Shown piece by piece: positions 3,083 to 25,465 of a stretch of DNA of 64,000 nucleotides. A model generated the notes under the pieces. It was not told the origin of the DNA, searched no databases, and was given only the letters and a program-made list of their open reading frames with translations. Source of the stretch: a virus; the IMG/VR virus record IMGVR_UViG_3300023180_005138, positions 1-64,000 of that record; one strand, given 5' to 3'. The number at the start of each line of letters is the position of its first letter. The stretch's first letter is position 1. A program made the position numbers and the translations under genes.

Positions 3083-3883
3083 TCATTGGCCTTGTGTAAC
3101 ACTTACACTACAACCGCCTGTGGTTTGACAGTCTTGCGTCAAACTATATGATTGTGCAGTGCTGCCTTGTTGTAACATATATAGGGATGTGGCATACAAA
3201 CCACTTAATGTAACTGTAGCACTGTGACCAGCATTACCTGTCTGTGCCATATCAACATCATTATTAGAATTATTAATAGTCAAGTTCATTGTCTTATTTT
3301 GGTTGCTGTCTTGTCTCATATAAACATTATTAGAATTACCGTATATACCAACTGTCATACTATGTTCGTGTCCAGAGTTGTTTGCTCGTTGTGCGCCGAG
3401 TAGTATGTTATTTGATCCGTGTATGTCTAATTGTGTAAAGTGTCCACCATACTCGTAACTATCGTAAGAATATGATCCACCAGTTGTTACAGTATATCCT
3501 TGATAAAAATCAACAGTGTTACTGTTGCCTGCGATATGAAACTCAAATCTATCACCACCACACACTGATTGATTACATAATTGTTTTACTGTAAGAGAAT
3601 TGCTATCACCGTCTAGGTCGCCGCCCCATGATGCGCCACTACCCCATGCTGTAGTATATCCAATATAACCATCTTTGCCCTTCTGTTCGATATTAACTGT
3701 GTTATTAGCACCGCCAAAACTAAAGTTAGTTATGTTATCACTACCCTCTACTGATACTGTAATATTGTTTGAGTTACCACTAGTAACTTGATTTATAGTA
3801 ACTGCATTATCCGCAAAAGCCTCAGTTCTGATTAATAACAATAACAGTATCGGAAGCGTTTTCTTGAGTGTGGAGAATGACAT
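3083..3883 (-). CDS. curlin-like secreted repeat protein (second copy)
   Basis: 266 residues with a signal peptide (about 1-24, ending AFA before DNAV). The mature part repeats a short unit with Asn-rich turns and a Gln after a beta strand: SGNSNNITVS, GANNTVNIEQKG, GDSNSLTVKQ, AGNSNTVDFYQG, GSNNILLGAQ, GNSNNVYMRQ, NSNNDVDMAQTG. This resembles the curlin repeat (QxGxxNxA...Q) that stacks into an amyloid beta-solenoid. There are four cysteines, two in LCNQSVCGG and two in DCQTTGGC, unusual for curlins. Its start overlaps the end of the FecR gene by 62 nt and has a perfect AAGGAGG ribosome site. With CsgG and CsgF upstream in the same cluster it is the likely export substrate or nucleator (CsgB-like role), which is inference. 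Confidence 0.65.
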   Translation of the reverse strand: MSFSTLKKTLPILLLLLIRTEAFADNAVTINQVTSGNSNNITVSVEGSDNITNFSFGGANNTVNIEQKGKDGYIGYTTAWGSGASWGGDLDGDSNSLTVKQLCNQSVCGGDRFEFHIAGNSNTVDFYQGYTVTTGGSYSYDSYEYGGHFTQLDIHGSNNILLGAQRANNSGHEHSMTVGIYGNSNNVYMRQDSNQNKTMNLTINNSNNDVDMAQTGNAGHSATVTLSGLYATSLYMLQQGSTAQSYSLTQDCQTTGGCSVSVTQGQ

Positions 3884-4892
3884 TATTACCTCCTTGGTTT
3901 AGTTGCATTTGGGTTTGTGAATAATTACCTACTTTTATACTTACTACTTTACCATCTACTTGTCTATATATTTCCCAATTTTCAGAAGCTCCTCCTATAA
4001 TTTGCGTATTTCCTTCTTCATATCTGCCAGGTTTAATAGGATTAGTTGGAAAAGTTTCTGTTTCCGCTAATAGTTTAGCATTTAACATATCAAGTATATT
4101 AGCTAGTAAATCGACATCTAATAAATTAAAATCTAATCTTGTAAAAACTAACTCGTCTTTATCAAGTTCATCATGTTTTAATAAATCAATATCTAATTCA
4201 TTAAAATCTAAAATTCCTTTTTCATTATTACTAGCATCTTCTGTTTTCTTTTCTTTTGGTTTTTTAACTATTAGTAAATTATTTATTTGAGCATCTGTTA
4301 GATCTAGTATAACAGGACGAGTAGGGGATTTTTCAGATGCTCCAACAACAGTAGCCTGATAAGCTTGATTGAGTATTACTTGACCTACATCTGACTCAAC
4401 AGAAATTTGACCCACAGAACCGTCTGCATTGGGCAAGAGTATTATTAAAGATTTACCTATTTCATCTACCGTCATACTAAAAGCAGTACCAAGAACGCCA
4501 ATACGTGCAGTAGGAGTCCTAATAGATACAGACTGTCGGTTATTTTTTGCAATAAGACCGCTAGCATACTTTACTGTTCCTAGTGCTATTTTTAATCCTA
4601 GCTTACTAGAAGTAGGTTTACTAGAATCATATACAAAATCATCAATAATAAGTTTTGAGTGTTTTTCTATTTGAACCTTTGTTTTATCAGTAAAACCAAT
4701 ACCAAGCACACCATTACCTGTACGGATATCATCATTCATCTCCACACCTGTATTTTTCTTTACTTCTAGCTTTGCCTTACTTCTATATAAATCTGCGGGT
4801 CCTGTTTGTTTTTCTACAGAACCAACAGAGGCAAAAGCACTAGTCGCTAACAGTAATAGTAACGGAAGAACTAGAACCATTCGTTGTAACAT
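3822..4892 (-). CDS. FecR-domain secreted protein with C-terminal curlin-like unit
   Basis: 356 residues with a signal peptide (about 1-21, ending AFA before SVGSVEK). Residues ~25-170 fit the periplasmic FecR domain: VEKQTGPADLYR, then DDIRTGNGVLGIGFTDKT, IALGTVKYASG and SIRTPTARIGVLGTAFSM. A charged middle region contains near-repeats LDFNELDIDLL and LDFNLLDVDLL, visible also in the DNA. The C-terminus (QLNQGGNNVILHTQ, then DTVIVINQ) looks like a single curlin repeat. FecR domains act in periplasmic signalling or bind beta-solenoid surface proteins, and often partner CHASE2 proteins. The gene overlaps its upstream curlin-like neighbour by 53 nt and the downstream one by 62 nt, implying tight co-expression. 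A role linking curlin fibres to the CHASE2 protein is inferred. Confidence 0.75.
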   Translation of the reverse strand: MLQRMVLVLPLLLLLATSAFASVGSVEKQTGPADLYRSKAKLEVKKNTGVEMNDDIRTGNGVLGIGFTDKTKVQIEKHSKLIIDDFVYDSSKPTSSKLGLKIALGTVKYASGLIAKNNRQSVSIRTPTARIGVLGTAFSMTVDEIGKSLIILLPNADGSVGQISVESDVGQVILNQAYQATVVGASEKSPTRPVILDLTDAQINNLLIVKKPKEKKTEDASNNEKGILDFNELDIDLLKHDELDKDELVFTRLDFNLLDVDLLANILDMLNAKLLAETETFPTNPIKPGRYEEGNTQIIGGASENWEIYRQVDGKVVSIKVGNYSQTQMQLNQGGNNVILHTQENASDTVIVINQN

Positions 4893-5544
4893 CTACAGTA
4901 CTCGCTTCTGCTCCAGATTGTGTCACACTAATTGTAGAACTACTACCTGTGTGATTAATTGTAGTATCGTGCTGAGAGGCTCCGCTCTTCGCAACAGTAA
5001 CAGTATTAGTACTACCTGTAATATCTATATCTGTAATTTTATCAGTAACGCTAGCCGCAGTGGAGTTTTCAGTAGCTGTAACAGTATTGCTACCACCATT
5101 AATGTTAATATCCATATTAACATCATCTACTCCAGAAGCTGTTGTACCAATATTAGCACTTACGGTGTTAGAGTTACCACCAGTAGCATTAATATTAAGA
5201 GTTACATCATCGCTCCCACCGTTACTACCTCCGGTAGTTCCAACATTGATATCTACATCTGAAGAGTTACCAGAAACATTAGAGGTAACATTTGCAGAAT
5301 CTCCATAGATATTATAGTCTAATTCGTTACTAGTACCTACCTGATCAATATCTAAAGTAGTAGTAGAACCACTACTACTACTGTCTGTACTGCTAGATCC
5401 GACTCGGTTTCCTGTACCATCTTGGTTAATATTTATTGAAGCAGAAGAACCAGATTGATCAATGTAAATCTCGTTATCTGCTAAAACTATAGTAGGAGTT
5501 ACTAACAAGCCTAATATAATTAATAGTAGCTTACTCCTTTTCAT
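4840..5544 (-). CDS. curlin-like secreted repeat protein (first copy)
   Basis: 234 residues with a signal peptide (about 1-22, ending VLA before DNEI). The first mature segment has clear curlin repeats: IDQSGSSASININQDGTGNRV is followed by IDQVGTSNEL, each matching QxGxxNx. The rest is a low-complexity Ser/Thr/Asn/Gly/Asp/Val protein with alternating pattern (VNDDIN-like strands) and ends TQSGAEASTVDV. It has no cysteine or tryptophan. This is the composition of CsgA/CsgB-type amyloid subunits, which leave the cell through the CsgG pore. It sits directly after csgG (14-nt overlap), so it is the best candidate major subunit. Repeat identity is clear at the N-terminus and weaker later. Confidence 0.7.
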   Translation of the reverse strand: MKRSKLLLIILGLLVTPTIVLADNEIYIDQSGSSASININQDGTGNRVGSSSTDSSSSGSTTTLDIDQVGTSNELDYNIYGDSANVTSNVSGNSSDVDINVGTTGGSNGGSDDVTLNINATGGNSNTVSANIGTTASGVDDVNMDININGGSNTVTATENSTAASVTDKITDIDITGSTNTVTVAKSGASQHDTTINHTGSSSTISVTQSGAEASTVDVTTNGSSSSVTITVSD

Positions 5545-6361
5545 TTTCCTTTCCTCCTGTAGACGCCTTTACCGTCTTATGAGTATAGTCCCAAAGTTTT
5601 TTCCTTCTCCCCTCTTTCACCATCTCAATAACTGCTGTTTCTATTGCTTGTCTAACAGCATAATTTACAGGCTCATTCGTGCTAGTCCCAGCTTCAACCT
5701 CAATTACTTTTGTACCCATATCATAGAACTTAAACACATTTAAGCCTACATTACAACTTAATATTGTTTTTTCGGTTGTAATAGTAAGTAGTACTTCTCC
5801 TGTAAGAACACTAATAACGCGTAATCCTACAGTAACAACGTCCATTCTCCACTCAGTTTGAGGTCCTATCCCTAGTAGTCTAATTCCTGCTCCACCAGTT
5901 TGTTTATTTGAGTCATATCCTACCACACCACCCTCAATCAGTATTCCTGCAAACTTAAGAGGAGATAGCTGTTTTGCTTTCTCTCCCTCAAAACTCTGTC
6001 TGGTGTTTCTAATTAGTTGTCTTTCTTTAATTAACGCCTCAAGACCCCCTCGCTCTACAACTTTAAAAAATTTTCCATCAGATATATCCATTAAGGCTTT
6101 TATTAAATAAACTTCTGCTCCTTGAGTAACTGCGCTACTTAAATTTGCAATATTATCCGCTGGTTTTCTTTGTCCAGTTAAATCTTTAAAACTGTAAACA
6201 GCTACTACCACAGGCTTACCTTTTATAGACGCAAAATCTCTTAATCCTGCTTTAAGAGGAGTAAAAGAAACAGAAGCAGGAGCTGGTTCCAACAAGCCCT
6301 GATGGGTTACGCAACCATTTAAAAATATAGCTAGAACAGCTACTCCTAATATCCGCATCAT
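5531..6361 (-). CDS. csgG: CsgG-type curli secretion pore lipoprotein
   Basis: 276 residues. A lipoprotein signal peptide ends FLNGC, with Cys17 the predicted lipidated residue. The body follows CsgG: VVVAVYSFKDLTGQRKP, an ALMDISDGKFFKVVERGGLEAL segment, KERQLIRNTRQ, LIEGGVVGYDSN, a GGAGIRLLGIGPQTEWRMD membrane hairpin region and a C-terminal VRQAIETAVIEMVKEG helix. Length equals that of bacterial CsgG (about 277). CsgG forms a nonameric outer-membrane channel that exports curlin subunits. csgF precedes it and a curlin-like gene follows, the order of an export operon, although CsgE, CsgC and CsgD are not visible. A host-acquired gene used by a phage, either to secrete amyloid or as an outer-membrane pore at lysis, is inferred. 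Confidence 0.93.
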   Translation of the reverse strand: MMRILGVAVLAIFLNGCVTHQGLLEPAPASVSFTPLKAGLRDFASIKGKPVVVAVYSFKDLTGQRKPADNIANLSSAVTQGAEVYLIKALMDISDGKFFKVVERGGLEALIKERQLIRNTRQSFEGEKAKQLSPLKFAGILIEGGVVGYDSNKQTGGAGIRLLGIGPQTEWRMDVVTVGLRVISVLTGEVLLTITTEKTILSCNVGLNVFKFYDMGTKVIEVEAGTSTNEPVNYAVRQAIETAVIEMVKEGRRKKLWDYTHKTVKASTGGKENEKE

Positions 6362-6373
6362 ATATATTTCCGC

Positions 6374-6820
6374 CTAAAAACCGAAGCCACTTGTCGGTAT
6401 TTCTACTGTTGTTACAGTTCCATTTGCATCTGTCACTGTCATTCTAATCATATCACCAATCGTCTCATATTGTATTGTATTTCCTAGAATAGTAATTGTT
6501 CCGCTCGACTGTGGGTTTTCCCCAAATAGCTTTTCACTTAACTGTTTACTAAGTTCTGCATAAACTCTACTCTCAAAATTTCTTAAAAACTTATTAATAT
6601 TAGTGTTTTCTGCTTCTCTTTCAGCTTCACGAGCCTCTGATTCTTTTTTTGCTTCTATATCCTTTTTTCTTTGAAAAGTTAAATTTTCTATGGTAAGAAC
6701 ATGAGAACTAAACCCCTGACCGTTAAAAGCCGGAGATTTAAAAGAATGTTTAAGTTCAGAAGCACTACTTGGGCTTACTAGGATGATCAAGGTCATCCAA
6801 ATTATCAATCTTGCCATCAT
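6374..6820 (-). CDS. csgF: CsgF-type curli assembly factor
   Basis: 148 residues with a signal peptide (about 1-20, ending SSA before SELKH). The mature start, HSFKSPAFNGQGF, matches the CsgF segment that inserts into the CsgG constriction. A charged helical linker (EAKKESEAREAEREAE) is inserted where bacterial CsgF has a shorter neck. It then continues with FLRNFESRVYAELSKQL and a C-terminal TITILGNTIQYETIG...MTVTDANGTVTTVEIP beta region, as in CsgF. CsgF sits outside on CsgG and couples secretion to nucleation. The gene lies 12 nt upstream of csgG and overlaps the preceding membrane-protein gene by 56 nt. The call rests on both end motifs and context. Confidence 0.85.
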   Translation of the reverse strand: MMARLIIWMTLIILVSPSSASELKHSFKSPAFNGQGFSSHVLTIENLTFQRKKDIEAKKESEAREAEREAENTNINKFLRNFESRVYAELSKQLSEKLFGENPQSSGTITILGNTIQYETIGDMIRMTVTDANGTVTTVEIPTSGFGF

Positions 6821-7055
6821 TATCTTTATCTCTTAATTGTAGAATAGTATTTAATTTTTGATTCAATCTAATTAAATCATTATCTAACATTCTAATTTGG
6901 TCAATTAGTTGAATAAGAGTACTTTGAGTTTCTGATATAACAGGTTTTACAATTTTAGTACTCCATGTCCATACATAATAAACAAAATAACCTAATCCCA
7001 TAGCTGCGATAATAGGAAATCCATATTTACTTATAGCATCTGCAATAGCATCCAT
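6765..7055 (-). CDS. small membrane protein with coiled coil and EF-hand-like loop
   Basis: 96 residues: a short N-terminal amphipathic stretch, one membrane segment (about residues 13-32, GFPIIAAMGLGYFVYYVWTW), a coiled coil (about 38-75, with MLDNDLIRLNQKLN) and a calcium-binding-like DKDNDGKIDNLDD loop near the C-terminus. It resembles the neighbouring gene at 7288-7566 in its GFP-I-AA membrane segment and its DLIR motif, so the two are probable paralogues. One membrane helix plus a coiled coil is common in phage holin-like or pore-support proteins, but function is not shown. It is encoded just before csgF, overlapping it. Confidence 0.6.
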   Translation of the reverse strand: MDAIADAISKYGFPIIAAMGLGYFVYYVWTWSTKIVKPVISETQSTLIQLIDQIRMLDNDLIRLNQKLNTILQLRDKDNDGKIDNLDDLDHPSKPK

Positions 7056-7070
7056 TATTTTTTTCTCTTT

Positions 7071-7304
7071 TTACTTACAGATTTTCTCACCCTCTTTAAA
7101 CGCTTTTTTTAATTCACAATCTTTACCTGTTACCCCACTAACTACATTATCAGTAAGATTTTTACCTGTCTCAGCTTCAACAGCGGAGTCAACTGCAAAC
7201 CACCCTATAGAACTAAATATTTGAGTGGCTGTTACAGCAGTGCAACCAGTTAAACAAAACATAAATAAAACACTAAGAATTAAATTTTTAGTCCCGTCTA
7301 GCAT
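7071..7304 (-). CDS. small lipoprotein of unknown function
   Basis: 77 residues from the ATG at 7304, chosen because AAGGAAAAG lies just upstream; an in-frame start 24 nt further up is less likely. The signal peptide ends FCLTGC, a clear lipobox, so the mature protein is lipid-anchored. The rest contains FSSIGWFAVDSAVEAETGKNL and two cysteines near the end (KDCELKK, EKICK). No family is recognised. Its place between two membrane-protein genes of the curli-type locus suggests an envelope role. Confidence 0.6.
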   Translation of the reverse strand: MLDGTKNLILSVLFMFCLTGCTAVTATQIFSSIGWFAVDSAVEAETGKNLTDNVVSGVTGKDCELKKAFKEGEKICK

Positions 7305-7566
7305 CTTCTTTTCCTTGTGCTCTAGCAATTCTTTCTATATCTGGTTTAGTACCTAACGCAGAAGACATTAAAATATCAATTCTAATCAAATCATGATTCA
7401 TTGTTTTAACACGATTATCTAGCGACATAATAATTCCTTGCATAGATTTTACAGATCCCATAACACTAGCTAATATAAATTTCATTGTTGTAAAAACAAA
7501 AAACCCGCTTGCAAGCGCAGCTGCAATCGGAAACCCCACCTCAGAAACTAATTTTAAAAAATCCAT
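7288..7566 (-). CDS. small membrane protein, paralogue of the 6765-7055 product
   Basis: 92 residues from the ATG at 7566, preceded by GGGAG; the longer reading frame upstream runs through a terminator hairpin and is rejected. Residues 5-35 form a membrane segment (VGFPIAAALASGFFVF...) followed by a predicted coiled coil (SLDNRVKTMNHDLIRIDILM). The segment and the DLIR motif match the other small membrane protein two genes downstream. First gene of the curli-type cluster. A holin-like role is possible but unproven. Confidence 0.6.
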   Translation of the reverse strand: MDFLKLVSEVGFPIAAALASGFFVFTTMKFILASVMGSVKSMQGIIMSLDNRVKTMNHDLIRIDILMSSALGTKPDIERIARAQGKEDARRD

Positions 7567-7580
7567 TTTTATTACTCCCA

Positions 7581-7626
7581 ATAAAAAAAAACATAGATAT
7601 ACATAATGAGTATATCTATGTTTTAA
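7581..7626 (-). terminator. intrinsic terminator, probably bidirectional
   Basis: A perfect 12-bp inverted repeat (ACATAGATATAC at 7591-7602, GTATATCTATGT at 7610-7621) with a 7-nt loop. It is flanked by a nine-A run on the left and TTTTA on the right, so a U-tract follows the hairpin in either direction. It ends leftward transcription of the spanin genes just before the curli-type cluster, implying that the cluster has its own expression control or depends on read-through. Confidence 0.8.
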
Positions 7627-7670: not shown

Positions 7671-8099
7671 TTACTGCTTATTTTTATCCGTATTATCTTT
7701 TGGTTTTTCAACTTTAGGTTTTATAGCCTCTTCATAATAAACTATAATTTTATCTTGCTGCTGAATATATCTTCTTAACTCAGATAGATTTATTGCTAAA
7801 TCCTCATAATCCCTGACACTAATTGCATAAAAAACAGTATTTCCATTTTCTTTTTCAAAACGTTTTAAAAAATCATTTAAATTCTTCTTCGTTACTACAT
7901 AAAATTTTACATTATTCATAGTAACAGGTTTTGGTTTTGTTTGAATTGGAATTTCGGGTCGTACAATTTTAGTCTGTACAGTCACCTTATCTTCTAAGAA
8001 GCCAGCACAACCTGTTAACGCAAGACTACTTAACAATAGGCTGCTTAGGAATAGCCCCTGTATCTTTTTCGATCTCTTCAAAAACTTTCTTTGTAGCAT
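7671..8099 (-). CDS. outer-membrane lipoprotein, probable o-spanin
   Basis: 142 residues. An N-terminal basic region and hydrophobic segment end in ALTGCAG, a lipobox (Cys about 31). The mature part is Pro/Lys/Val-rich then helical (KKNLNDFLKRFEKENG, INLSELRRYIQQQDKI) and ends in a charged Lys/Asp tail. Its start lies inside the end of the upstream gene (74-nt overlap), which encodes a membrane-anchored coiled-coil protein. This is the usual arrangement of Rz/Rz1 spanin pairs that fuse inner and outer membranes at the last step of lysis. The muramidase gene lies about 1 kb upstream. Confidence 0.65.
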   Translation of the reverse strand: MLQRKFLKRSKKIQGLFLSSLLLSSLALTGCAGFLEDKVTVQTKIVRPEIPIQTKPKPVTMNNVKFYVVTKKNLNDFLKRFEKENGNTVFYAISVRDYEDLAINLSELRRYIQQQDKIIVYYEEAIKPKVEKPKDNTDKNKQ

Positions 8100-8412
8100 T
8101 ATTAATTTTTCCTTCCACTAAAGCAGGTTTTTTCTCACTGAGAGCAGTGAGATCGTGCTTTCTTAGTTTTTGTCTTAATTCATCTCCATACGCTTCAGAT
8201 TCTTGTAATTGCTTTTGTAACTGAGAGTTTAGTTGAGAAAACTTTTTAGAATCTGCTTGAAGAGTATTGATTGTTTCTTGGTTAGTCTTATTAGCTACTT
8301 CAAGTTTAGCATTATTTTCTGTTAATATCTTAATTCTGGCCTGAGAGTCGTTATAGTACCAATAACCGGCTCCTGCCATTAAAATTATAACTACAATAAG
8401 ATATTTAGACAT
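8026..8412 (-). CDS. membrane-anchored coiled-coil protein, probable i-spanin
   Basis: 128 residues with one N-terminal membrane helix (about 3-20, YLIVVIILMAGAGYWYY) and then a long coiled coil (about 25-85, rich in Gln, Asn, Lys, Leu). The C-terminus is Pro-containing (GAIPKQPIVK). This is the shape of an Rz-like inner-membrane spanin. The overlapping downstream lipoprotein supplies the outer-membrane partner. The final ATG/stop junction with the previous gene shares one base (8412). Confidence 0.65.
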   Translation of the reverse strand: MSKYLIVVIILMAGAGYWYYNDSQARIKILTENNAKLEVANKTNQETINTLQADSKKFSQLNSQLQKQLQESEAYGDELRQKLRKHDLTALSEKKPALVEGKINNATKKVFEEIEKDTGAIPKQPIVK

Positions 8413-9183: not shown

Positions 9184-9723
9184 TTACCAGTCAGGTTGTT
9201 TTAACATTGACATTGCAGAGTCAGTAGTTTCTGTAACTCTCCTAGTCCAACCTCTACCAAAAGTATCAAAAGTTTTTAATGACTCATAATATGCTTGTCT
9301 ACGAGCTTGATATTCGCTAATTATTCCTTCTACGCTTTCCATATTCACAAACTCTGTAACTTTTCTTAGAGTTGCAGGACCAATCGCTCCATCAGCAGAA
9401 GCTCCAATCATTCTTTGTAAATATTTAGCAGCTCTACCTGTTCCAGCATTTACTCCAAAATCAAAAACACATAAATCAAGACCTACAGGAAGTTTATCGC
9501 ATTTTAAACGTCCCCAATAGTTCTTTTCATAAATGGGAGCAACATCTTCGATAGTTAAATCTTTCATGTCTTTTTGATGTAGATCATTTTCCATACACCA
9601 AGCTTCATAAACTCTTTTCGTAACTCCAAGATTTGTTTCTCCACCAGGGTCTTTAGGATGGTTTACGTAACCCCCTTCATGGTGAAGAATAATTTTTAGA
9701 CAATGATTAAAACTATTTGCCAT
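9184..9723 (-). CDS. GH108-type N-acetylmuramidase endolysin
   Basis: 179 residues. The N-terminal HHEGGYVNHPKDPGGETNLGV motif is diagnostic for glycoside hydrolase family 108, with catalytic Glu16. The helical middle includes FDFGVNAGTGRAAKYLQ, and the C-terminal part (GASADGAIGPATL) matches the family's peptidoglycan-binding domain. It cleaves the glycan backbone of peptidoglycan at the end of infection. No signal peptide is seen, so it probably needs a holin. It has its own promoter (9759-9787) and heads the lysis gene group. Confidence 0.92.
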   Translation of the reverse strand: MANSFNHCLKIILHHEGGYVNHPKDPGGETNLGVTKRVYEAWCMENDLHQKDMKDLTIEDVAPIYEKNYWGRLKCDKLPVGLDLCVFDFGVNAGTGRAAKYLQRMIGASADGAIGPATLRKVTEFVNMESVEGIISEYQARRQAYYESLKTFDTFGRGWTRRVTETTDSAMSMLKQPDW

Positions 9724-9793: not shown

Positions 9794-10912
9794 CTATCCT
9801 AATTGATACTCTCTTACAGGTATTCTCTCCATATCAAAATTATTTAAATTTAAATAATTAGACCTTCCTATCTCTTTAACAATAGGAATAACTATACTAT
9901 CATTCCACAAATTCATTAAATTAGGAACATATTTTCTCATATGTTTATACACTAAAGAATCTTCATTATCACAAACATCAGATCTAAGATCATTTCCTAA
10001 TCCTGTGGGTTTTACTGCTTGCCATCTTTGATCAAACGGTAGTCTACAAGCCGCTTCTAAATGTTGTCTAATTGATCTGCCATCTTTTAGTATACTAGTT
10101 TCTTTATCGTTTAATCCTCCCAACACTTTATTTGTTGGAAGATTATACTCTTCCCAATAATTTTTAACTAAATAACACTGTTTTACATGTAATTTAGGTA
10201 GATCAGGGCTAGTAAAAAACCACTCTCCTGCTAAAGCAGCTGCGATTCCCCAGCCGCTTAATTTATTATACCAAGTTCCGTTTCTAACTGTTAGTACGGG
10301 TTTGTTCTCTCCATAGATTTGTCCAACATTGCCCTTCGCGTATATCTGACTATGGTTATACTCAGCGAAATCATAAGCCCCAAATCTTCTTATCATACCT
10401 ATGGTTCCATTAAAAGCGGTACCTACCCAACGATCTTTATTACAAAAATCAGTTATTATTTTTTCGTCTACGTGATTAATTGTAACTTTAGTTCCGGGCA
10501 TAAATCTAATATAGGTTTTTACTTTTTGAATAGCTAATTCTATATCTAGCAGGGCGGGGTCATTATTATTAAAACAGATTCGATTTATAACAATTTCGTC
10601 TAAAAAAGTTCTACTTTTTAGAAAACTTTGTAATACAGTTTCTGAGTCCGATCCTCCACTATAATATAAAATTAAATAGTCGTACTTATCTCTAAGTTGT
10701 CTACATCTTTCATCTAATAAATCTAAATAATTTTCTGTAGGCTCGTGGGACCAATCTACAGAATCCCAAAAACCACCGTCGTGAATCACTTCTAAATTAC
10801 TAAGAGTTTCTTTACTTAGTGCAACTTGTAACTTAGTAGAGTATATTTTTTTAGTAGTTTTACTGTGAACTTTAACTCTATCATCGTTTTGGACATGAAA
10901 TAAGTTTCTCAT
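9794..10912 (-). CDS. PP-loop ATP pyrophosphatase-like protein (copy 1)
   Basis: 372 residues. The PP-loop signature SGGSDS is at residues 85-90 after a YLILYY strand, so it should bind ATP and adenylate a substrate. It is not QueC, TilS or asparagine synthetase by its remaining motifs. It is clearly paralogous to the product at 18676-19749: both share HDGG/HDGQ-W, LDERCRQLR/LINRCRQLR, FNGTIG/FNGSIG and WFFTS/WFYTS...VKNY. In both arms the gene is paired head-to-tail with a DegT-family aminotransferase (here sharing one base at 10912). A joint role in making an amidated or amino-modified metabolite or sugar is inferred. Confidence 0.75.
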   Translation of the reverse strand: MRNLFHVQNDDRVKVHSKTTKKIYSTKLQVALSKETLSNLEVIHDGGFWDSVDWSHEPTENYLDLLDERCRQLRDKYDYLILYYSGGSDSETVLQSFLKSRTFLDEIVINRICFNNNDPALLDIELAIQKVKTYIRFMPGTKVTINHVDEKIITDFCNKDRWVGTAFNGTIGMIRRFGAYDFAEYNHSQIYAKGNVGQIYGENKPVLTVRNGTWYNKLSGWGIAAALAGEWFFTSPDLPKLHVKQCYLVKNYWEEYNLPTNKVLGGLNDKETSILKDGRSIRQHLEAACRLPFDQRWQAVKPTGLGNDLRSDVCDNEDSLVYKHMRKYVPNLMNLWNDSIVIPIVKEIGRSNYLNLNNFDMERIPVREYQLG

Positions 10913-12042
10913 TATAAAGAATTAGAAACCTCTATCATAATATCCTTATTTTCATCTGTTAAATACTCATGAAGGGGAAGAATAACTAATTCTTTTGCTA
11001 GTCGTTGTGCATATGGATACTCAACAGAGTCATAGTCAGAAAAACAAGGCATGTCAGGAAAACACGGATAAACACTAACACCTATTCCAACTTTTTTAAA
11101 CTCTCCTGCCGCTTCTTTTGCACTCATTTTAGAAGGAAAGAATCCAAATCCTGTACAAATATTATTTTCGCCAGTTAATCTTTCTTGTAGAATTTCTTTC
11201 TCAAATAGCTTATTATTTGCTCTACGCTGCTCTCTAACATCATTTTCTATTAGTATATCAATATCCTCTGCTATAATACGAGCAGTAGTATCGTCCATAG
11301 AACTTTTAGATGCAGGAGCAACAAACCCGTTTCTATTTTTATTGAATCCTTGCTGAGTTACTTCTTTCATATCATCTATTAGACGCTTACTAGAAGTGGC
11401 AACTGCCCCTCCTGTACCAGTGCTTGCTGGGTGTTTAGCAATATCAAAACTATAACAAGAAATATCTGCGTATCCCGGTTTATTACCTCCATCATTCATG
11501 TAGAATGCATTAGCAGCATCTTCAACAATCCACACATTTTTTGGGGCTATATTAGAAATCATTTCTACGTCTTGTACCCTTCCTAATAAATGAACGGGCA
11601 TAACAACCTTTGCAGTTGGAAATTTATCTAGAGCCTCTGCTAGACTATTAGGGCACATCATGGCGTCAGGTCCGTTATCACAGAATATAATTTTTCTGTT
11701 TATCCATAAAATGTTTTCAGGAGTAGCAATAAATCCCCAAGCGGGAATAATAACTTGATCACCTGGTTCTGTAGTTACTGCAAGTGCCGCTTGTATAGCA
11801 TCACTACCACAGTCAGTAAAATGCCAATGGTTAATTCCACTATGAAGTGTACATTTATTTGCTAAAGCGGCTCTACTAGGAGTATAATAATCGCTACTAG
11901 GCCCCGCACTTAGCCAGTCTGAGATAGTGTCTAGTCCTAATTCGTAGGCTTTTACATATCTATCTTTATATCTCTCGATTCTCTGTTTATATGCAAAATA
12001 TGGTACGTTTTGATTCTGATATTTATCTGGTATATCAACCAT
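10912..12042 (-). CDS. DegT/DnrJ/EryC1-type PLP aminotransferase (copy 1)
   Basis: 376 residues, fold type I. The PLP Lys is K203 in SFDIAKHPASTGTGGA; the cofactor-contacting VEDAANAF is at 173-180, and FTDCGSDAIQ (76-85) fits the phosphate-binding loop. The family transfers amino groups to keto sugars of nucleotide-activated glycans. It is paralogous to the product of 19749-20855 (both have H/YW-FTDC-DA-Q and the YSFD-K signature). It pairs with a PP-loop gene and ends in EVSNSL. A dTDP-keto-sugar substrate is possible because FdtA and RmlB are encoded in the other arm. Confidence 0.85.
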   Translation of the reverse strand: MVDIPDKYQNQNVPYFAYKQRIERYKDRYVKAYELGLDTISDWLSAGPSSDYYTPSRAALANKCTLHSGINHWHFTDCGSDAIQAALAVTTEPGDQVIIPAWGFIATPENILWINRKIIFCDNGPDAMMCPNSLAEALDKFPTAKVVMPVHLLGRVQDVEMISNIAPKNVWIVEDAANAFYMNDGGNKPGYADISCYSFDIAKHPASTGTGGAVATSSKRLIDDMKEVTQQGFNKNRNGFVAPASKSSMDDTTARIIAEDIDILIENDVREQRRANNKLFEKEILQERLTGENNICTGFGFFPSKMSAKEAAGEFKKVGIGVSVYPCFPDMPCFSDYDSVEYPYAQRLAKELVILPLHEYLTDENKDIMIEVSNSL

Positions 12043-14429: not shown

Positions 14430-15293
14430 CTATTTTTGGATAGCAGGTGACCAGTGTGTTGTTCTCTTATCATCAAGAACAATTCTTTCAATAGGGTTTC
14501 CATAGGGATCTTCTTTTTGAGAATAAACCATTACCCCTATTCTAGACTTCATCATATCATCTGCTTTAGACGGAAAAGCTACATAGTCACCTTGATTATT
14601 GTATAAATCAGAATAATTTCTAATGGTTGCACCACCAGACTCAAGTGAATTTTTAAGTACAGTTTTAACTGATTTGTATAGTCTAAGAAGTTCTTTTTCT
14701 GAGCAGCTACCCACTGTACGGTGAGGAGCCAAAGCCGATAAAAAAAGAGACTCAGATTTATATATATTTCCAACACCTGATACATTTTTTTGTTCCATTA
14801 AAAATTTTACTAAAGAGCTGTTTTTTCGCTTTTCGCATATTTGTAACCAAGTTTCTTCGTCACAAGGTTCATTTAACATATCTGGACCAATTTCAGATAG
14901 TTTTTTATTTAAATGTGTCTGACAGTCGGCACCCGAAAAAAATTTAAGAGTGCCAAAGTTACGCATATCGGAATAGTATACAGAAAAACCGTCATTAAAG
15001 TCCCAACGAACTCTTGCATATTTATTATCTTCTGTTTTATAAGTACCTGTCATACCCAGTGTACTAAATATAACTCCAGAGCTAGTAATCCAATAAATAA
15101 ACTTACCTTTATTGTTAACTCCAAGTACTTTTTGAGGCTCTTCGTTAATTGTATAGTCTAAATATTCTGTAAACCCGTCAGGTTCTTTTTTGAGATATCT
15201 TCCAGTTAAAATTTCTATATTTGAGATAGTCTTTCCATTTATAACGGAATGTAACTGTCGTGCTACTATAGTGCACTCCGGTCCTTCTGGCAT
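14430..15293 (-). CDS. Fpg/Nei-family DNA glycosylase lacking zinc-finger cysteines
   Basis: 287 residues. The start MPEGPE supplies the catalytic N-terminal Pro and Glu, and NNKGKFIYW carries the conserved Lys. The helix-two-turn-helix is at about 165-190 (NVSGVGNIYKSESLFLSALAPHR). The C-terminal zinc finger is present in outline (VYSQKEDPYGNPIERI...RTTHWSPAIQK) but all four Cys ligands are replaced, while the DNA-contacting Arg is kept. It is therefore a zincless finger, as in some eukaryotic and viral Nei proteins. The enzyme removes oxidised bases. The gene lies upstream of hsp20. Confidence 0.9.
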   Translation of the reverse strand: MPEGPECTIVARQLHSVINGKTISNIEILTGRYLKKEPDGFTEYLDYTINEEPQKVLGVNNKGKFIYWITSSGVIFSTLGMTGTYKTEDNKYARVRWDFNDGFSVYYSDMRNFGTLKFFSGADCQTHLNKKLSEIGPDMLNEPCDEETWLQICEKRKNSSLVKFLMEQKNVSGVGNIYKSESLFLSALAPHRTVGSCSEKELLRLYKSVKTVLKNSLESGGATIRNYSDLYNNQGDYVAFPSKADDMMKSRIGVMVYSQKEDPYGNPIERIVLDDKRTTHWSPAIQK

Positions 15294-18126: not shown

Positions 18127-18393
18127 ATGCGTAATTTAGTAGAAATATCAGCATATCGCATTGACTTTAAAGAAACTATAGACCACTATGAAGAGCAAGG
18201 CTTCTCATATGTAAGTTCACATGTTACGCCAGAGCAAAATAAAACTGGTGAAATTACTATTGTTTTTGAAGGTTCACGCGAATATATTGCTGAAATTTCA
18301 GATGCAGACGGTCATCGTGCGTTCTTGCAATTCGATGACGGAACCGAATCTCCTTTATATATTAAACGAGAAAGAAACTTTTGGGAAGATTAA
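18127..18393 (+). CDS. small protein, first gene of the right arm
   Basis: 88 residues, acidic, mixed alpha/beta (DFKETIDHYEEQGFSYVSSHV, FDDGTESPLYIKRERN). No ribosome site is seen before the ATG, consistent with a leaderless transcript from the promoter at 18092. No family recognised. One base separates it from the next gene. Confidence 0.5.
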   Translation: MRNLVEISAYRIDFKETIDHYEEQGFSYVSSHVTPEQNKTGEITIVFEGSREYIAEISDADGHRAFLQFDDGTESPLYIKRERNFWED

Positions 18394-18394
18394 A

Positions 18395-18676
18395 ATGGCA
18401 GAATTTAAGCTCTGGGGTGTTTATACGCCTCTTTTAGAACAATGGACTCGTGATATGGGTAATCGCATGGAAGCCTATGTAGATACTAATGTTCATGATA
18501 TTGACGCTGAGTATTTTGATGAAGATGATCCTAGAGTCGCGCTATATGGATGGAAAAATTTTCCTCTATTTGTTGCTGTTAAGCATGGTCAACCTTTTCA
18601 AAAGGTAATTGGTAAACGTAACTGGGAATTTTATGAAGACTGGGTTAAAGGATTGGACTGGAAACGTGAGGCTTAA
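18395..18676 (+). CDS. small protein of unknown function
   Basis: 93 residues from the ATG at 18395; the frame is open further upstream, but that part overlaps the previous gene. Rich in Trp and acidic residues (LWGVYTPLLEQWTRD, DIDAEYFDEDDPRVALYGW, WEFYEDWVKGLDWKRE). Its TAA shares a base with the ATG of the PP-loop gene. Not recognised. Confidence 0.5.
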   Translation: MAEFKLWGVYTPLLEQWTRDMGNRMEAYVDTNVHDIDAEYFDEDDPRVALYGWKNFPLFVAVKHGQPFQKVIGKRNWEFYEDWVKGLDWKREA

Positions 18677-19749
18677 TGGAGTTTGACAGAGACTTTATCT
18701 TTTCTCATCAAAAAGTTTATAATATACACACAAATAAAAGTTATAATAGTAAAATATCTCTCATCTTATCTGATGAAACCCCTCAAAACTTAAGACTTCT
18801 TTTACATGACGGCCAGTGGGATCAATATAACTGGGAAATTGAACCGTCAGAATCTTTTGATAACTTATTAATTAATAGATGCCGACAACTAAGGCAGATG
18901 TACCCATATCTTACACTATACTTTAGTGGGGGAGCAGATTCTGAGACAATGGTACAATCATTTATAAAAGCTGGTATTGATCCTGATGAGATTGTAATAA
19001 ATGTATTCGAAGTCGCTAATGAAAATCCTTTACCTGATGTAGAATTAGCAATAAAAAAGCTAAACACCTATAAAAACTATTTACAAAAAACAAAGATTAC
19101 AATAAACCGATTCGGAAGAGAACTTCTGTTAAAGCTACTAGAAGGTAATCTTTGGTTTGACTCATACTTTAACGGGTCTATTGGTAATATCAGAAGGTTA
19201 ACCCTTCCAATTTATCAAGAGCTAGGGTTTTACAAAGATTCTGTACACTACACGGGTCATATTTTTGCTGATATGAAACCACAAGTAGAAGTAAAAAATA
19301 ATAAGTTTTATGCAAAAATGGGTCAAGGACTTAGCATAGGTCAATATGCAGACTGGTTTTATACAAGTTTAGATGCACCAGAGTTACAAATAAAACAAGC
19401 ACATTTAGTAAAAAACTATTTTAAAATACACGTTCCTACTGCTACTGGGTATTTAGGAGAACGTTCTAAGTATAAAGAAGATGTAATCAAAGCCTGTAGA
19501 TATAATTTTGACAACAGGTTTCAACCAGACAAGTTTGATGGGCTAGGATCAGATTTGCTAATTAAAAAGAAAACTGAAGATAGTGTAGTATATAATCTTA
19601 TGAAAAGCAAAGATCATCAACTATTTGATACCTACACTAGTAAAACTAAAGAACTTTTATCAGGAATAAAAAGTAAATCTCTAATTAGACCTGATACTTA
19701 TGATTTAGTGCCTATTAGTTATCAACAGGAATTTTATTTAGGTGAATAA
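18676..19749 (+). CDS. PP-loop ATP pyrophosphatase-like protein (copy 2)
   Basis: 357 residues with SGGADS at 84-89 after a YLTLYF strand. Paralogue of the left-arm protein at 9794-10912: the same blocks occur in the same order, including INRCRQLR, VQSFIKAG, FNGSIGNIRR, WFYTSLDAPEL and QAHLVKNYF. The PP-loop activates a carbonyl, carboxyl or nucleobase by adenylation. The aminotransferase gene follows, sharing one base, then two radical SAM genes, suggesting a multistep biosynthesis. The substrate is unknown. Confidence 0.75.
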   Translation: MEFDRDFIFSHQKVYNIHTNKSYNSKISLILSDETPQNLRLLLHDGQWDQYNWEIEPSESFDNLLINRCRQLRQMYPYLTLYFSGGADSETMVQSFIKAGIDPDEIVINVFEVANENPLPDVELAIKKLNTYKNYLQKTKITINRFGRELLLKLLEGNLWFDSYFNGSIGNIRRLTLPIYQELGFYKDSVHYTGHIFADMKPQVEVKNNKFYAKMGQGLSIGQYADWFYTSLDAPELQIKQAHLVKNYFKIHVPTATGYLGERSKYKEDVIKACRYNFDNRFQPDKFDGLGSDLLIKKKTEDSVVYNLMKSKDHQLFDTYTSKTKELLSGIKSKSLIRPDTYDLVPISYQQEFYLGE

Positions 19750-20855
19750 TGAAAAAAATAGCATTTATCCCTCATAAACAAAGATTAGAAAGACATAAAG
19801 TAGACTATTTAAGAGCCATGAGCGATGCTATGGACTATCCATATCAATCAGAAGATGGCAGAGATTTATCTCCTATACAACAAGCTCTTCATGATAAATG
19901 CGCAGAGCTTTCAGGCATTCCATATTGGACTTTTACAGATTGTTGTACTGATGCACTTCAAATTTCAATACATTGCTTAACTGAGCCTGGAGATATTATT
20001 GTAGTTCCCTCTTACGGATGGCGTGCTTTCGCAAATGCAGTGAAATTTATGAATCGAACTCTTCATTTTGTAGATTGTGATGAAACTGGTAATATTTCTA
20101 TAGATTCTTTAGAAGAGTATTGTAAAGAAGCAATTTTAGCTCCTGCAGCAGTAATTGCAGTACATAATTTTGGTACCGTTGTAGATTGTAGAAATATTAG
20201 AACTATTCTTGATAATGAAGGATTTGTAAATACTTGTATAATTGAAGATGCAGCTCCAGCATTTTATATGGGAGAGCCTTATGCTTATACCCCTGGTAGC
20301 TCGTCTGAAGCGGTATGCTATTCCTTCGACTTCACAAAATATCCAGGAACGCTTGGTAGCGGAGGAGCAATTGCAACACGTTTTGAGGACGTTAAGGAAA
20401 GGGTTTATCTTTCTTCAGCACATGGCAGAGCAAAATCTGGACAAATTATTACCTTTGGTACTAAGTCATATATGGATAATACCTCTTGTGCCGTTCTTTT
20501 AAAAGAGATTCAGTTGTTTGAGCAGTTTGAGTATAGAAAGCGTAGAGACGCAATTGCTACTTGGTATAAAAACAATCTTCCCTATCCAAACGTACCCGGC
20601 GATAATTATGTCTGGGAGAGATATACGATGGCAGTCTTTCCAGACCAGGTAGAGTCTGTTATAAAATCACTTAATGATGTAGGTTGTTTAGCAAGAACAT
20701 TCTTTAAAGAACCTCTCCATCAGTATGATTGGCTAAATGACAATAAAAAATGGTGCCCTATGACAGAACAGTTTACCGCTTCTACTGTTATGCTTCCTTC
20801 TCATCACTATTTAAAAGATGAAGAATTAGAAAGAATAGCAGAAGCCTTATGTTAG
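19749..20855 (+). CDS. DegT/DnrJ/EryC1-type PLP aminotransferase (copy 2)
   Basis: 368 residues. PLP Lys is K197 in YSFDFTKYPGTLGSGGA; IEDAAPAFYMGE (165-176) and FTDCCTDALQ (62-71) make the cofactor site. Paralogue of the left-arm aminotransferase, with the same unusual K(Q)R-ER start. Family members make amino sugars from keto sugars. It overlaps the downstream radical SAM gene by 7 nt. Together with FdtA and RmlB 5 kb downstream it could complete a 3-amino-3,6-dideoxyhexose route; this is inference. Confidence 0.85.
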   Translation: MKKIAFIPHKQRLERHKVDYLRAMSDAMDYPYQSEDGRDLSPIQQALHDKCAELSGIPYWTFTDCCTDALQISIHCLTEPGDIIVVPSYGWRAFANAVKFMNRTLHFVDCDETGNISIDSLEEYCKEAILAPAAVIAVHNFGTVVDCRNIRTILDNEGFVNTCIIEDAAPAFYMGEPYAYTPGSSSEAVCYSFDFTKYPGTLGSGGAIATRFEDVKERVYLSSAHGRAKSGQIITFGTKSYMDNTSCAVLLKEIQLFEQFEYRKRRDAIATWYKNNLPYPNVPGDNYVWERYTMAVFPDQVESVIKSLNDVGCLARTFFKEPLHQYDWLNDNKKWCPMTEQFTASTVMLPSHHYLKDEELERIAEALC

Positions 20856-21676
20856 ATCTAAGAATACTAGATGTAGTTGTATTATTAAATTGTAATCTTA
20901 ATTGTAGAGGTTGCAATAATTTTTGTGATCACAATGTAGCTGGTATAAGAAGTCTAGAAAACCTAAAACAAGATTTTATTAACTGGAAAACTAAAATTAA
21001 TCCTTCTAGAGTACAAATTATGGGAGGAGAAGCTTTATTACATAAAAATATATACGAAGTTATATATGCAGCTAGAGAGCATTTTCCTAATACTGACTTA
21101 AGATTATTTACTAATGGTCTTTTGTTAAATAAACACAAAGAATTAGTAAAAGTATTACAAGATACTAATTGTATGTTAGTAATTAGTGTACACTCTAAAG
21201 AGCCTAAGTATCTTAATTTTCTTTCTGATAGTGTACATTCTATTTTTAAAGGTTCTTTTAAAAATTCTGAAACAAAATCTTTAGTTTCTTATGGAACTGT
21301 ATATGAAAAAGAAGGTGTTACAATAGAATTTAGAGACATGACGAATCATTGGTATCAAACTTATAAAAATGGAGTAACCCCTTACCAAGATAATGACCCC
21401 AAAAAGTCCTGGGAAGCCTGTTATTTTAAATATTGCACTCAACTTTATGATGGAAAACTATGGAAATGCTCTCAAATAGCATATTTAGAGCCTTTAATGT
21501 CCCGTATCAATAATACAGAGTCTTGGGAAAAGTATAGAAATATTTATAAAGCATTAGATTATGATGGGTCAGATAAAGATTTTTTAGATTTTAGAACTAA
21601 TTTAAATAGAGAAGAGTTTATTTGTAATATGTGTCCGGCTAACCCAGAAATGCTGAGGTCAAAAAGTGTCTGGTAA
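20849..21676 (+). CDS. radical SAM protein
   Basis: 275 residues. CNLNCRGC near the N-terminus (about 15-22) is the CxxxCxxC that binds the 4Fe-4S cluster, and MGGEALL is the GGE strand contacting SAM. Four more cysteines towards the C-terminus (EACYFKYC, LWKCS, FICNMC) could bind an auxiliary cluster as in SPASM/Twitch proteins. Substrate unknown. It follows the PP-loop/aminotransferase pair and overlaps the next radical SAM gene by 11 nt. Confidence 0.85.
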   Translation: MLDLRILDVVVLLNCNLNCRGCNNFCDHNVAGIRSLENLKQDFINWKTKINPSRVQIMGGEALLHKNIYEVIYAAREHFPNTDLRLFTNGLLLNKHKELVKVLQDTNCMLVISVHSKEPKYLNFLSDSVHSIFKGSFKNSETKSLVSYGTVYEKEGVTIEFRDMTNHWYQTYKNGVTPYQDNDPKKSWEACYFKYCTQLYDGKLWKCSQIAYLEPLMSRINNTESWEKYRNIYKALDYDGSDKDFLDFRTNLNREEFICNMCPANPEMLRSKSVW

Positions 21677-22631
21677 AACTATTATTGGTATTAAACAAGA
21701 TGGAACAGTAGAAGAATTTTATCCTCAAGAATTAAGAGCTTCTAAGCTAAATGCTTGGAAAGGTTGGAAATGTTCTGTAGGACAATATAATATTGCTATA
21801 GCAGAAAATGGAGATATGAAAGGCGGAGATTGTGGAATCGGAGGACATCTAGGAAATATATATAAAGAGTTTCGTATTCCTAAGGAATGGCACACTTGTA
21901 CTATAGATTATTGTTCATGTTTTTTTGATATTGGAGTTCCTAAAGTATCTCAAGACCCCAACTCTGATTATAAAGAGTTTAGATCAAAAGAAATAGATTT
22001 AAAATTTGAATGGTTTTTGTCGGCTAAGTGTAACTATGCTTGTGAATATTGTCCTGATACGATTCATAATAATTTACCTCATAAAAATACATCAAAACAA
22101 GTATTTACCGGATTAGATAACTTATTTAAAAAACTAGATGGTAGAACATTTACAATGAGTCTTTGGGGCGGAGAGCCTACTATGTTTCCAGATTATATAG
22201 AAATTTGTAAAAAAATAAATGATTATGGAGCTAGAGTATTTACAACAACTAACGGAAGCAGAAGTGAAAAATACTTAGCAGAATTAATTCATCATAGCTG
22301 TTTATCTATATCAGTACATCAAGACTCTTATGATCAAGATAGAATGATAAATAATATAAAAGCTATAATAAGCGAAATAGATAAAAATAAGTTAGAAAAC
22401 TGGATAATGGTTAGGTGTATGGTTAAGCCAGGAAGTCTTTCTCACTGGAAAATTTTTATAGAAAGACTACAAAACGAAATACCCAACTTTACAAATAAAG
22501 CTAAATTAACATTAAACACCTTAGTAGGAGTATTACCTGATAGAAGTGATTGGACGGAAGATTTAATGGTAGGATATACAGAAAAAGAACTAAGTATATT
22601 AAAAAAATATGGTAGGTTGACAAATGTCTAA
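21666..22631 (+). CDS. radical SAM protein with N-terminal cysteine-rich domain
   Basis: 321 residues from a GTG. The first ~115 residues hold a cysteine-rich region (WKCSVG, GGDCGIGG, HTCTIDYCSCFFDIG) that could bind an auxiliary iron-sulphur cluster. The radical SAM core begins CNYACEYC, with LWGGEPTMFPD supplying GGEP. An auxiliary domain placed before the core is uncommon and recurs in the product of 47928-49013. Translationally coupled to neighbours on both sides (11- and 8-nt overlaps). Confidence 0.82.
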   Translation: MSGKTIIGIKQDGTVEEFYPQELRASKLNAWKGWKCSVGQYNIAIAENGDMKGGDCGIGGHLGNIYKEFRIPKEWHTCTIDYCSCFFDIGVPKVSQDPNSDYKEFRSKEIDLKFEWFLSAKCNYACEYCPDTIHNNLPHKNTSKQVFTGLDNLFKKLDGRTFTMSLWGGEPTMFPDYIEICKKINDYGARVFTTTNGSRSEKYLAELIHHSCLSISVHQDSYDQDRMINNIKAIISEIDKNKLENWIMVRCMVKPGSLSHWKIFIERLQNEIPNFTNKAKLTLNTLVGVLPDRSDWTEDLMVGYTEKELSILKKYGRLTNV

Positions 22632-23586
22632 TATATTAATTACTGGAGGACAAGGATTCATAGGGGCGGCAATTGCTGAAGTTCTTAAAAAAGAACATAC
22701 AGTAATTATTATGGATAAATGGTCAGAAAAGTATCCTGGGTACTCTGCTATTCATAGAGGTAAAGACGGACTAAAACCAGCTTCTATATTAGAAATGAAG
22801 CATAGAAAACAAGCAGCGGAATACAGAAATAATCAAATAAAAAATATATCTATTATAAAGTCTTGGACTTTTAATGAACATTTAGAAGATAAAATATCTC
22901 CTTTTTGGCCAGATTTAATTATAAATTGTGGTAGTTTGTCTGAGGCTATTTTATCTCAATATTTTAAGGAATTTACAGAAGACTCTATAGTAAGAGGCAT
23001 AGTTCAACTTAAATATATGTTTGATTGTCCTATACTTCATTTTTCTAGTTCCATGTCTTATGGATCTTGGACAGGGCCAATTAAAGAAGATGCTATGCAA
23101 AATCCAGTAGATTGGTACGGTAAATGTAAACAATTAAGTGAAATTTATATGGAAAGAGATAAAGATATAATAGTGCGTCCTATGCATGTTTATGGCTTCG
23201 GAGACGGTAAATTTCCAATGCCCATGAACATAGAAAGACAATATCAAAATGGCCGTCCTGTAACAGTAGAAGAGGCAGACTGCATCTATATTAAGGACCT
23301 TGTTGTAGTAATTAAAAAAATGATTGATAAATGGGTTCCAGGAGTGTATAATCTAAGTTCTGGATATCTTCGTTCTAAGGAAGTAATTAGAGAAGAATCT
23401 AAAAATATTCTTGGATATGAAATAGAAACAATTAATAAATCTGGTCCTACTGGTAAAGATAGAGGAACACTAGATTCTTCGAAACTAATGGAAGTTTATA
23501 ACTGGAACTCACAATATAAAAATTACAAAGAGACAATCATAGATTACTTTAATCAGTATAGGATAAATAATGAGAATAATAGTTAG
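22624..23586 (+). CDS. NAD-dependent epimerase/dehydratase (extended SDR)
   Basis: 320 residues. Rossmann motif ITGGQGFIGAAI at the start, an SSSMSYGS strand (catalytic Ser), and the YGKCK catalytic Tyr/Lys. A VRPMHVYGFGDG segment follows, as in nucleotide-sugar epimerases. Probably converts a nucleotide-activated sugar; exact activity not assignable. Overlaps the upstream radical SAM gene by 8 nt and the downstream bS21 gene by 17 nt. Confidence 0.85.
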   Translation: MSNILITGGQGFIGAAIAEVLKKEHTVIIMDKWSEKYPGYSAIHRGKDGLKPASILEMKHRKQAAEYRNNQIKNISIIKSWTFNEHLEDKISPFWPDLIINCGSLSEAILSQYFKEFTEDSIVRGIVQLKYMFDCPILHFSSSMSYGSWTGPIKEDAMQNPVDWYGKCKQLSEIYMERDKDIIVRPMHVYGFGDGKFPMPMNIERQYQNGRPVTVEEADCIYIKDLVVVIKKMIDKWVPGVYNLSSGYLRSKEVIREESKNILGYEIETINKSGPTGKDRGTLDSSKLMEVYNWNSQYKNYKETIIDYFNQYRINNENNS

Positions 23587-23899
23587 AAATAATGATCCTT
23601 TAAAGGCTTACAAGTTACTTAATAGAAAACTCCATGAAGCTAATATCTTTATAGAGTTAAAAGAAAGACAACACTATAAGTCTAAAGGAGAAAAAAGAAG
23701 AGAAAAGCGAAAAAGAGCTGTTGCTAGACAAAGAAAAGAGCATGCTCAAAAAGAAGCTATTCTATTAAAATTAGAAAACCAAATAACACGAGGAAATAAT
23801 GGTAGAAGAAACAACACAGGAAAACCAAATTCAAATAGAATGGGTTCCACTAACCGTAGCAGGAATCCTCAAAGTAAAGCTCCCAGAACCAACAGTTAA
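23570..23899 (+). CDS. rpsU: ribosomal protein bS21 homologue
   Basis: 109 residues. The first ~65 match bS21: IIVRNNDPLKAYKLLNRKLHEANIF, ELKERQHYKSKGEKRREKRKRAVARQRKE, i.e. the beta strand, helix and strongly basic tail helix. Bacterial bS21 is about 70 residues; here a ~40-residue Asn/Arg/Ser-rich tail is added, and its last 33 codons lie in a 101-nt overlap with the next gene. bS21 sits on the 30S subunit near the anti-Shine-Dalgarno and helps initiation. Phage copies are known and could bias ribosomes towards phage mRNA. Confidence 0.85.
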   Translation: MRIIVRNNDPLKAYKLLNRKLHEANIFIELKERQHYKSKGEKRREKRKRAVARQRKEHAQKEAILLKLENQITRGNNGRRNNTGKPNSNRMGSTNRSRNPQSKAPRTNS

Positions 23900-24491: not shown

Positions 24492-24499
24492 AATAAATC

Positions 24500-24537
24500 T
24501 TCTCTAATGCTTCTTTCAATGATATACTAATGGTATA
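24500..24537 (+). promoter_or_regulatory. weak candidate promoter with inverted repeat
   Basis: TATACT (24523-24528) is a good -10; the -35 17 bp upstream (TTCTCT) is poor. TATAC (24523-24527) and GTATA (24533-24537) form an inverted repeat over the -10. It would drive 24557, purS and the tmRNA. Confidence 0.4.
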
Positions 24538-24556
24538 AATTTGAAAGGAGTTTTTT

Positions 24557-24811: not shown

Positions 24812-24832
24812 AAATTAAAAAAGGGGTTGACA

Positions 24833-25451: not shown

Positions 25452-25465
25452 ATTTTGAGGGACAA

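Follow-up and report, generated by a model that had tools for sequence, protein, structure and literature searches.

We found that the first 64,000 nucleotides of IMG/VR record IMGVR_UViG_3300023180_005138, a 117-kb contig of a marine bacterial virus (positions 1 to 64,000 of the record, hereafter the window), carry a curli locus that extends from position 7566 to the contig end. We consider it fairly probable that the phage encodes here a complete type VIII (curli) secretion module, with which infected cells would secrete a surface fibre through a pore of phage CsgG and CsgF. A first-pass annotation had read the locus as a curli-type export system with its own curlin substrates, and this reading was borne out by matches to CsgG and CsgF and by family-level matches to curlin repeats. 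The locus is real and largely known; what is new is that it occurs in a T5-like lineage and that two of its parts, the FecR-domain protein and the short genes ahead of CsgF, are read differently.

The curli module and its carrier phage

The gene for the outer-membrane lipoprotein pore CsgG (5531-6361, minus strand) matched PF03783 with an E value of 5e-48 and E. coli CsgG in the PDB with 3.6e-45, residues 7-264 being aligned. The lipobox cysteine, Cys17, was invariant among 25 relatives, and a profile-guided scan detected at least 594 CsgG relatives in IMG/VR. The neighbouring CsgF gene (6374-6820, minus strand) matched PF10614 (E 5.7e-19, profile positions 4-132 of 132), with a conserved N-terminal region that weakly matched residues 4-35 of E. 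coli CsgF. Both homologues had been named in the first-pass annotation, which had not seen CsgE; a PF10627 search of the entire 117-kb record likewise gave no match. In terms of sequence, the features of type VIII (curli) secretion found here are a CsgG lipoprotein pore, CsgF and an exported curlin-repeat substrate, and the feature absent from the 117-kb record is the CsgE gate, which some lineages also lack. This absence counts against the fibre reading.

The genes from HOLa, the first of the short genes, through the curlin-repeat gene CUR2 lie head to tail on the minus strand and mostly overlap, as had been described for this leftward cluster. The reported succession of CsgG and CsgF by two exported curlin-like proteins was correct for all four genes and had missed three others, namely the FecR gene (3822-4892), the BAR gene (949-2916) and the CHASE2 gene (2-937). 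The order CsgF-CsgG-curlin-FecR-curlin-cyclase is thus present in the window, with the BAR gene inserted and the cyclase cut where the contig ends. Among 59 phage loci with full flanks, a set that contains near-duplicates, every one had CsgF, FecR and two curlin genes; the cyclase was found in 58 of them, HOLb in 52 and HOLa in 45. Where dN/dS could be measured, most module genes had values of 0.02-0.18, and the module genes are under purifying selection.

BAR (minus strand) is an exported 655-aa protein with no significant match in Pfam, NCBIfam or PHROG, and its C-terminus appears outer-membrane-barrel-like. Its slot, the gap between CUR2 and the cyclase, is likewise filled in five other loci, making it an optional module member. 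The CHASE2 gene (minus strand; PF05226 E 9.3e-39) encodes the sensor part of an adenylate/guanylate cyclase and is cut by the contig start; an intact relative also contains Guanylate_cyc. The GC content of these two genes is 42-44%, as compared with about 29-38% for the remainder of the first 26 kb.

The TerL of the phage showed 42-43% identity over 97% to those of T5-like phages, and the record also encodes a portal, a head protease and a major tail protein of T5 type. Judging from these genes, the carrier of the curli module is a T5-like phage, and we found no prior report of such a carrier in the papers examined on curli and siphoviruses. Two near relatives of high identity, L353 and L354, keep the gene order through spanins-HOLa, and L354 also through HOLb. 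Five further loci (L240, L357, L359, L362 and L378) show the order endolysin-spanins-HOLa-HOLb-CsgF-CsgG-curlin onward, as in the window. The type of endolysin varies despite the conserved order. A chimeric contig was ruled out, since the junction recurs in all seven of these independently assembled loci.

A gene at 14430-15293 is common to the window, the same five loci and G082, a 173-kb T5-like record, and is missing from all 12 other module carriers tested. G082 has spanins and no CsgG. CsgG was found in none of 38 T5-like relatives identified through TerL, which are mostly fragments; the eight that were compared do not include the module region, so that the absence carries little weight except in G082. 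The spanin gene, used as a query, retrieved a single distant relative. T5-like carriers were intermixed with T4-like ones in the CsgG tree, with at least two label changes forced by well-supported branches. From this intermixing we conclude that the curli module has passed from one phage lineage to another, moving as a cassette.

Curlin-repeat, FecR-domain and small membrane proteins

Curlin-like repeats had been noted at first pass in two exported proteins, CUR2 (3083-3883, minus strand) and CUR1 (4840-5544, minus strand), together with the suggestion of a curlin-repeat HMM search. In that search, 19 of 23 relatives of CUR2 matched Curlin_rpt (best 2.5e-25), as did 24 of 29 relatives of CUR1 (best 8.6e-6), whereas the window's own copies gave E values of 0.0033 and 0.052, respectively, both failing the Pfam cut-off. 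Curlin homology was accordingly decided at the family level, at which the earlier claim held. The half-repeat N-x-h-x-h-x-Q occurs seven times in CUR2, as compared with 1.0 in shuffled sequences (0 of 5000 as high); in CUR1 it showed no enrichment over shuffles. The canonical glutamines are mostly lost in this degenerate protein, which counts against the fibre reading. The predicted model of CUR1 was all-beta (pLDDT 82) and resembled phage models labelled 'Curlin associated' (E 3.3e-6, TM 0.76), suggesting a beta-solenoid; a fold search of the PDB returned nothing significant. CUR2 is the fastest-evolving gene of the module, and its relatives add N-terminal domains such as PA14, a combination of PA14 and curlin repeats being found in HTVC008M gp018. 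CUR2 is probably the exposed adhesive subunit.

Between CUR1 and CUR2 lies the FecR-domain protein (minus strand; PF04773 E 4.3e-8), which consists of an N-terminal signal peptide, a FecR domain (54-147) and a curlin-like tail. No second Pfam domain, an anti-sigma domain included, scored above the cut-off in this protein. The tail is a strand ending in [ILVF]x[ILVF]xQ, which was found in 104 of 112 phage FecRs, the corresponding counts being 1 of 82 for bacterial relatives and 20 of 1522 for other ORFs; this motif was picked after the first FecR alignment and held in loci fetched afterwards. In an hhalign profile comparison, the tail matched the cap at the C-terminus of CUR2 with a probability of 89.9 (E 1.7e-6; non-curlin control segments at most 4.4). 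The tail was of low confidence in the predicted structure (pLDDT <50), so that the assignment of a curlin cap rests on sequence profiles. The model of the FecR domain showed weak likeness to the cell-surface anchoring domain 5ix9 (E 0.017) and to the PupR signalling domain 6ovk (E 0.027). The layout of FecR anti-sigma regulators, with a cytoplasmic anti-sigma domain, a TM segment and a periplasmic FecR domain, was not matched by the phage protein, which is predicted to be exported rather than a cytoplasmic anti-sigma regulator. The protein looks like an exported fibre part or anchor: its export, together with the curlin-type cap at its end, makes it most likely that it is incorporated into the fibre or anchors it.

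Two small proteins are encoded ahead of CsgF. HOLa (7288-7566, minus strand; phrog_18771 E 2.3e-32) is 92 aa long and has a single predicted TM segment, and HOLb (6765-7055, minus strand; E 2.9e-29) is a 96-aa membrane-type paralogue of the same phrog. The small lipoprotein-like ORF between them (7071-7307, minus strand; lipobox-like CLTGC) occurred in only two loci of the survey, plus L354 at 68%, and is not conserved across the module. The HOL pair is located either ahead of CsgF or past the cyclase on the opposite strand. Among 50,697 phage records, HOLa matched solely the six HTVC008M/Melnitz records that carry CsgG, which makes it a module-specific partner. The short genes of the window sit where the published module has a 'histidine kinase' (PMC9599517), and we infer from position and size that HOLa and HOLb are the genes given that label. 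HOL-type proteins are mostly 85-115 aa, none of 31 members matched HisKA or HATPase at E 0.1, and HOLa contains no Pfam domain of any kind, kinase included; by sequence, the kinase label is not supported. The holin label also appears weak: the family phrog_4898 matched the HOL proteins weakly (15 of 31, best 4.2e-5), and HOLa and HOLb are strictly linked to CsgG rather than to lysis genes.

Possible roles of the module

The content and order of the module and the selection on its genes are established from the sequences, whereas a fibre, signalling and a benefit to the phage are inferred. In the reading that we favour, the host Sec machinery would export the module proteins during infection, and CsgG would form an outer-membrane pore with CsgF inserted. 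CUR1 and CUR2 would then traverse the CsgG-CsgF pore and build a beta-rich, putatively amyloid fibre on the infected cell. FecR would join or anchor this fibre, its FecR domain being held at the cell, and may report the status of the fibre to the CHASE2 cyclase. The likely benefit would be a changed surface adhesion of infected cells, either through clumping or through the blocking of competing phages. The roles offered at first pass, namely superinfection exclusion, clumping and a lysis pore, are all earlier published speculations (PMC9004378, PMC9599517, PMC7029224), and sibling capture, uptake and lysis timing have also been discussed (PMC7029224, PMC9004378). Neither cytograms nor TEM revealed clumping in Melnitz cultures (PMC9004378), which counts against the fibre reading.

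Bacterial relatives of FecR were located near a CHASE2 cyclase in 21 of 74 loci, with no CsgG or CsgF nearby. It thus seems that a curli part and a FecR-cyclase part have come together in the phage module, linked via the curlin cap. A tentative and rather doubtful extension is that the FecR-curlin hybrid acts as a gauge: it would be a retention anchor with its FecR domain in the periplasm and its cap built into the fibre, and would signal assembly to the CHASE2 cyclase, coupling fibre growth to cAMP. To our knowledge, no curli-coupled signalling part of this sort is known in bacteria.

One alternative explanation is that the module is an uptake pore or a nutrient-signalling device based on FecR and the cyclase, the fibre being incidental, as proposed previously (PMC7029224, PMC9599517). 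The association of FecR with CHASE2 cyclases in bacteria without curli genes, as well as the absence of the CsgE gate, is consistent with this proposal. However, all 59 loci have two curlin-repeat genes and FecR itself bears a curlin cap, which ties signalling to the fibre, and we regard this explanation as unlikely. The constant retention of the substrates makes an uptake pore less likely, and a lysis pore as well.

A role in lysis is suggested by the genes upstream. Directly ahead of the module are two overlapping Rz-like spanin genes (7671-8412, minus strand; phrog_812 E 2.1e-16 for 7671-8099), a pair retained in relatives, and an endolysin of the glycosyl hydrolase 108 type (9184-9723, minus strand; PF05838 E 1.3e-30). 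According to this hypothesis, CsgG-CsgF has been repurposed for lysis timing as a gated outer-membrane pore, secretin or pinholin-like, acting with the lysis genes, and the curlins are secondary (PMC9004378). The position of the module directly after endolysin and spanins in the window, L240, L357, L359, L362 and L378, and the weak holin-family matches of the small proteins, argue for it. However, a terminator-like hairpin (7588-7624, minus strand; 15-pair stem and T-run) lies between the spanins and HOLa, in agreement with the earlier statement that the cluster begins right after the spanin terminator, and such a hairpin with a T-run was found at six of seven junctions (window, L353, L357, L359, L362 and L378; none in L240). 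Spanins already serve outer-membrane disruption, the T5-like relative G082 has them without CsgG, and curlins, FecR and cyclase are retained in essentially all loci. Since CsgF, two curlins and FecR are present in every one of the 59 loci, and no lysis gene is annotated adjoining the module in HTVC008M and Melnitz, a lysis pore fits least among the roles suggested earlier, and we judge it improbable. It is more improbable still that the published regulatory roles of FecR and the twin small membrane proteins (a FecR regulator, and a histidine kinase ahead of CsgF) are correct and the curli system is otherwise ordinary: the FecR domain is real and its model is weakly PupR-like, but the protein has a signal peptide, a curlin cap and no detected anti-sigma domain, and the small proteins, at mostly 85-115 aa, lack HisKA and HATPase matches.

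Comparison with known systems

A 2022 study described the arrangement CsgF-CsgG-CsgA/B-FecR-CsgA/B-adenylate cyclase in podo- and myo-pelagiphages, with a short 'histidine kinase' ahead of it and no CsgE, and detected viral curli proteins at all 65 GOV2.0 stations (PMC9599517). The T4-like carriers HTVC008M and Melnitz have a module order identical to that of the window, annotated in part, and the HTVC008M record annotates a curlin subunit. The novelty that the first-pass annotation had implied for a phage locus with its own curlin substrates is therefore not upheld. Our results add a third phage lineage to those in which the curli module is known, show that the module travels as a cassette, and substitute testable proposals for two published guesses, that FecR is an iron regulator and that the short genes are histidine kinases. 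Should fibres be formed, infected marine bacteria would acquire a new surface structure that is not encoded by SAR11 and OM43 hosts according to published accounts, which would affect clumping, superinfection and gene exchange.

The phage module shares the CsgG pore, CsgF and curlin-repeat substrates with the enterobacterial csgBAC-csgDEFG system, and differs from it in lacking CsgE, in the degenerate repeats of CUR1 and in adding a FecR with a curlin cap, a CHASE2 cyclase and twin small membrane proteins. The four alphaproteobacterial curli operons that were sampled (L511-L514) have CsgF, CsgG and nearby curlin-repeat genes in common with it, but no homologue of the phage FecR or its cap, the cyclase, or HOLa/HOLb. 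Bacterial FecR-CHASE2 cyclase neighbours resemble the module in encoding a FecR domain close to a CHASE2 cyclase; only 1 of 82 bacterial FecRs has a curlin-type tail, and neither CsgG nor CsgF is near. The closest likeness is to the pelagiphage module (HTVC008M, Melnitz and HTVC023P-type; PMC9599517, PMC7029224, PMC9004378), which has the same genes in the same order, short genes ahead and no CsgE. The pelagiphage carriers are T4-like or podoviruses, whereas the carrier described here is T5-like, and its copy of the module abuts a lysis cassette and adds the gene for the 655-aa barrel-like protein between CUR2 and the cyclase.

tmRNA and other genes of the viral record

The window carries a permuted tmRNA of the alphaproteobacterial type at 24986-25454, which was matched by the Rfam models alpha_tmRNA (117 bits) and tmRNA_permuted (116 bits), and its tag reads ANDNFVASENYALAA. 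This tmRNA type hints that the virus may have an alphaproteobacterial host.

Reading by eye, we noticed an island at 18221-35092 containing DegT aminotransferase, radical-SAM-like, epimerase and glycosyltransferase-like genes, which looks like one for surface-glycan modification; the stretch 9794-12042, on the opposite strand, partially resembles it. Likewise by eye, the aspartate carbamoyltransferase-like and PurT-like genes at 49010-49810 and 53070-54245 look like nucleotide-synthesis auxiliary genes, and a 2058-aa tail-region protein (L052:12355-18531, record 76355-82531) has near its N-terminus a Hint/intein-like start, CFAPDTLISIESGFKPISDIEVGDSVWAFNE.

Module copies and a CsgG relative in other records

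The phage-type curli module was also present on contigs assigned to Flavobacteriaceae, Rhodobacteraceae, Pirellulales and Pelagibacter genomes (L057-L061 and L067), which are probably phage contigs placed in genome bins. Among the phage records searched, a CsgG relative with 36% identity was found in OR851715.1, a 1499-base 'Salmonella phage' record, where it is perhaps host contamination.

Variation within the module

At loci where the small membrane-type proteins HOLa/HOLb are displaced, a divergent Fis-family (HTH_8) gene, a possible regulator of the curli module, lies directly upstream of CsgF (L037:3200-3430, L044:7088-7417 and 17 more loci). As for the exported curlin-repeat protein CUR2, additional heads on curlin may be common, since gp018 of the pelagiphage HTVC008M (L055:10579-11904) fuses a PA14 domain to curlin repeats and 42 of the 99 CUR2 proteins reach at least 330 aa.
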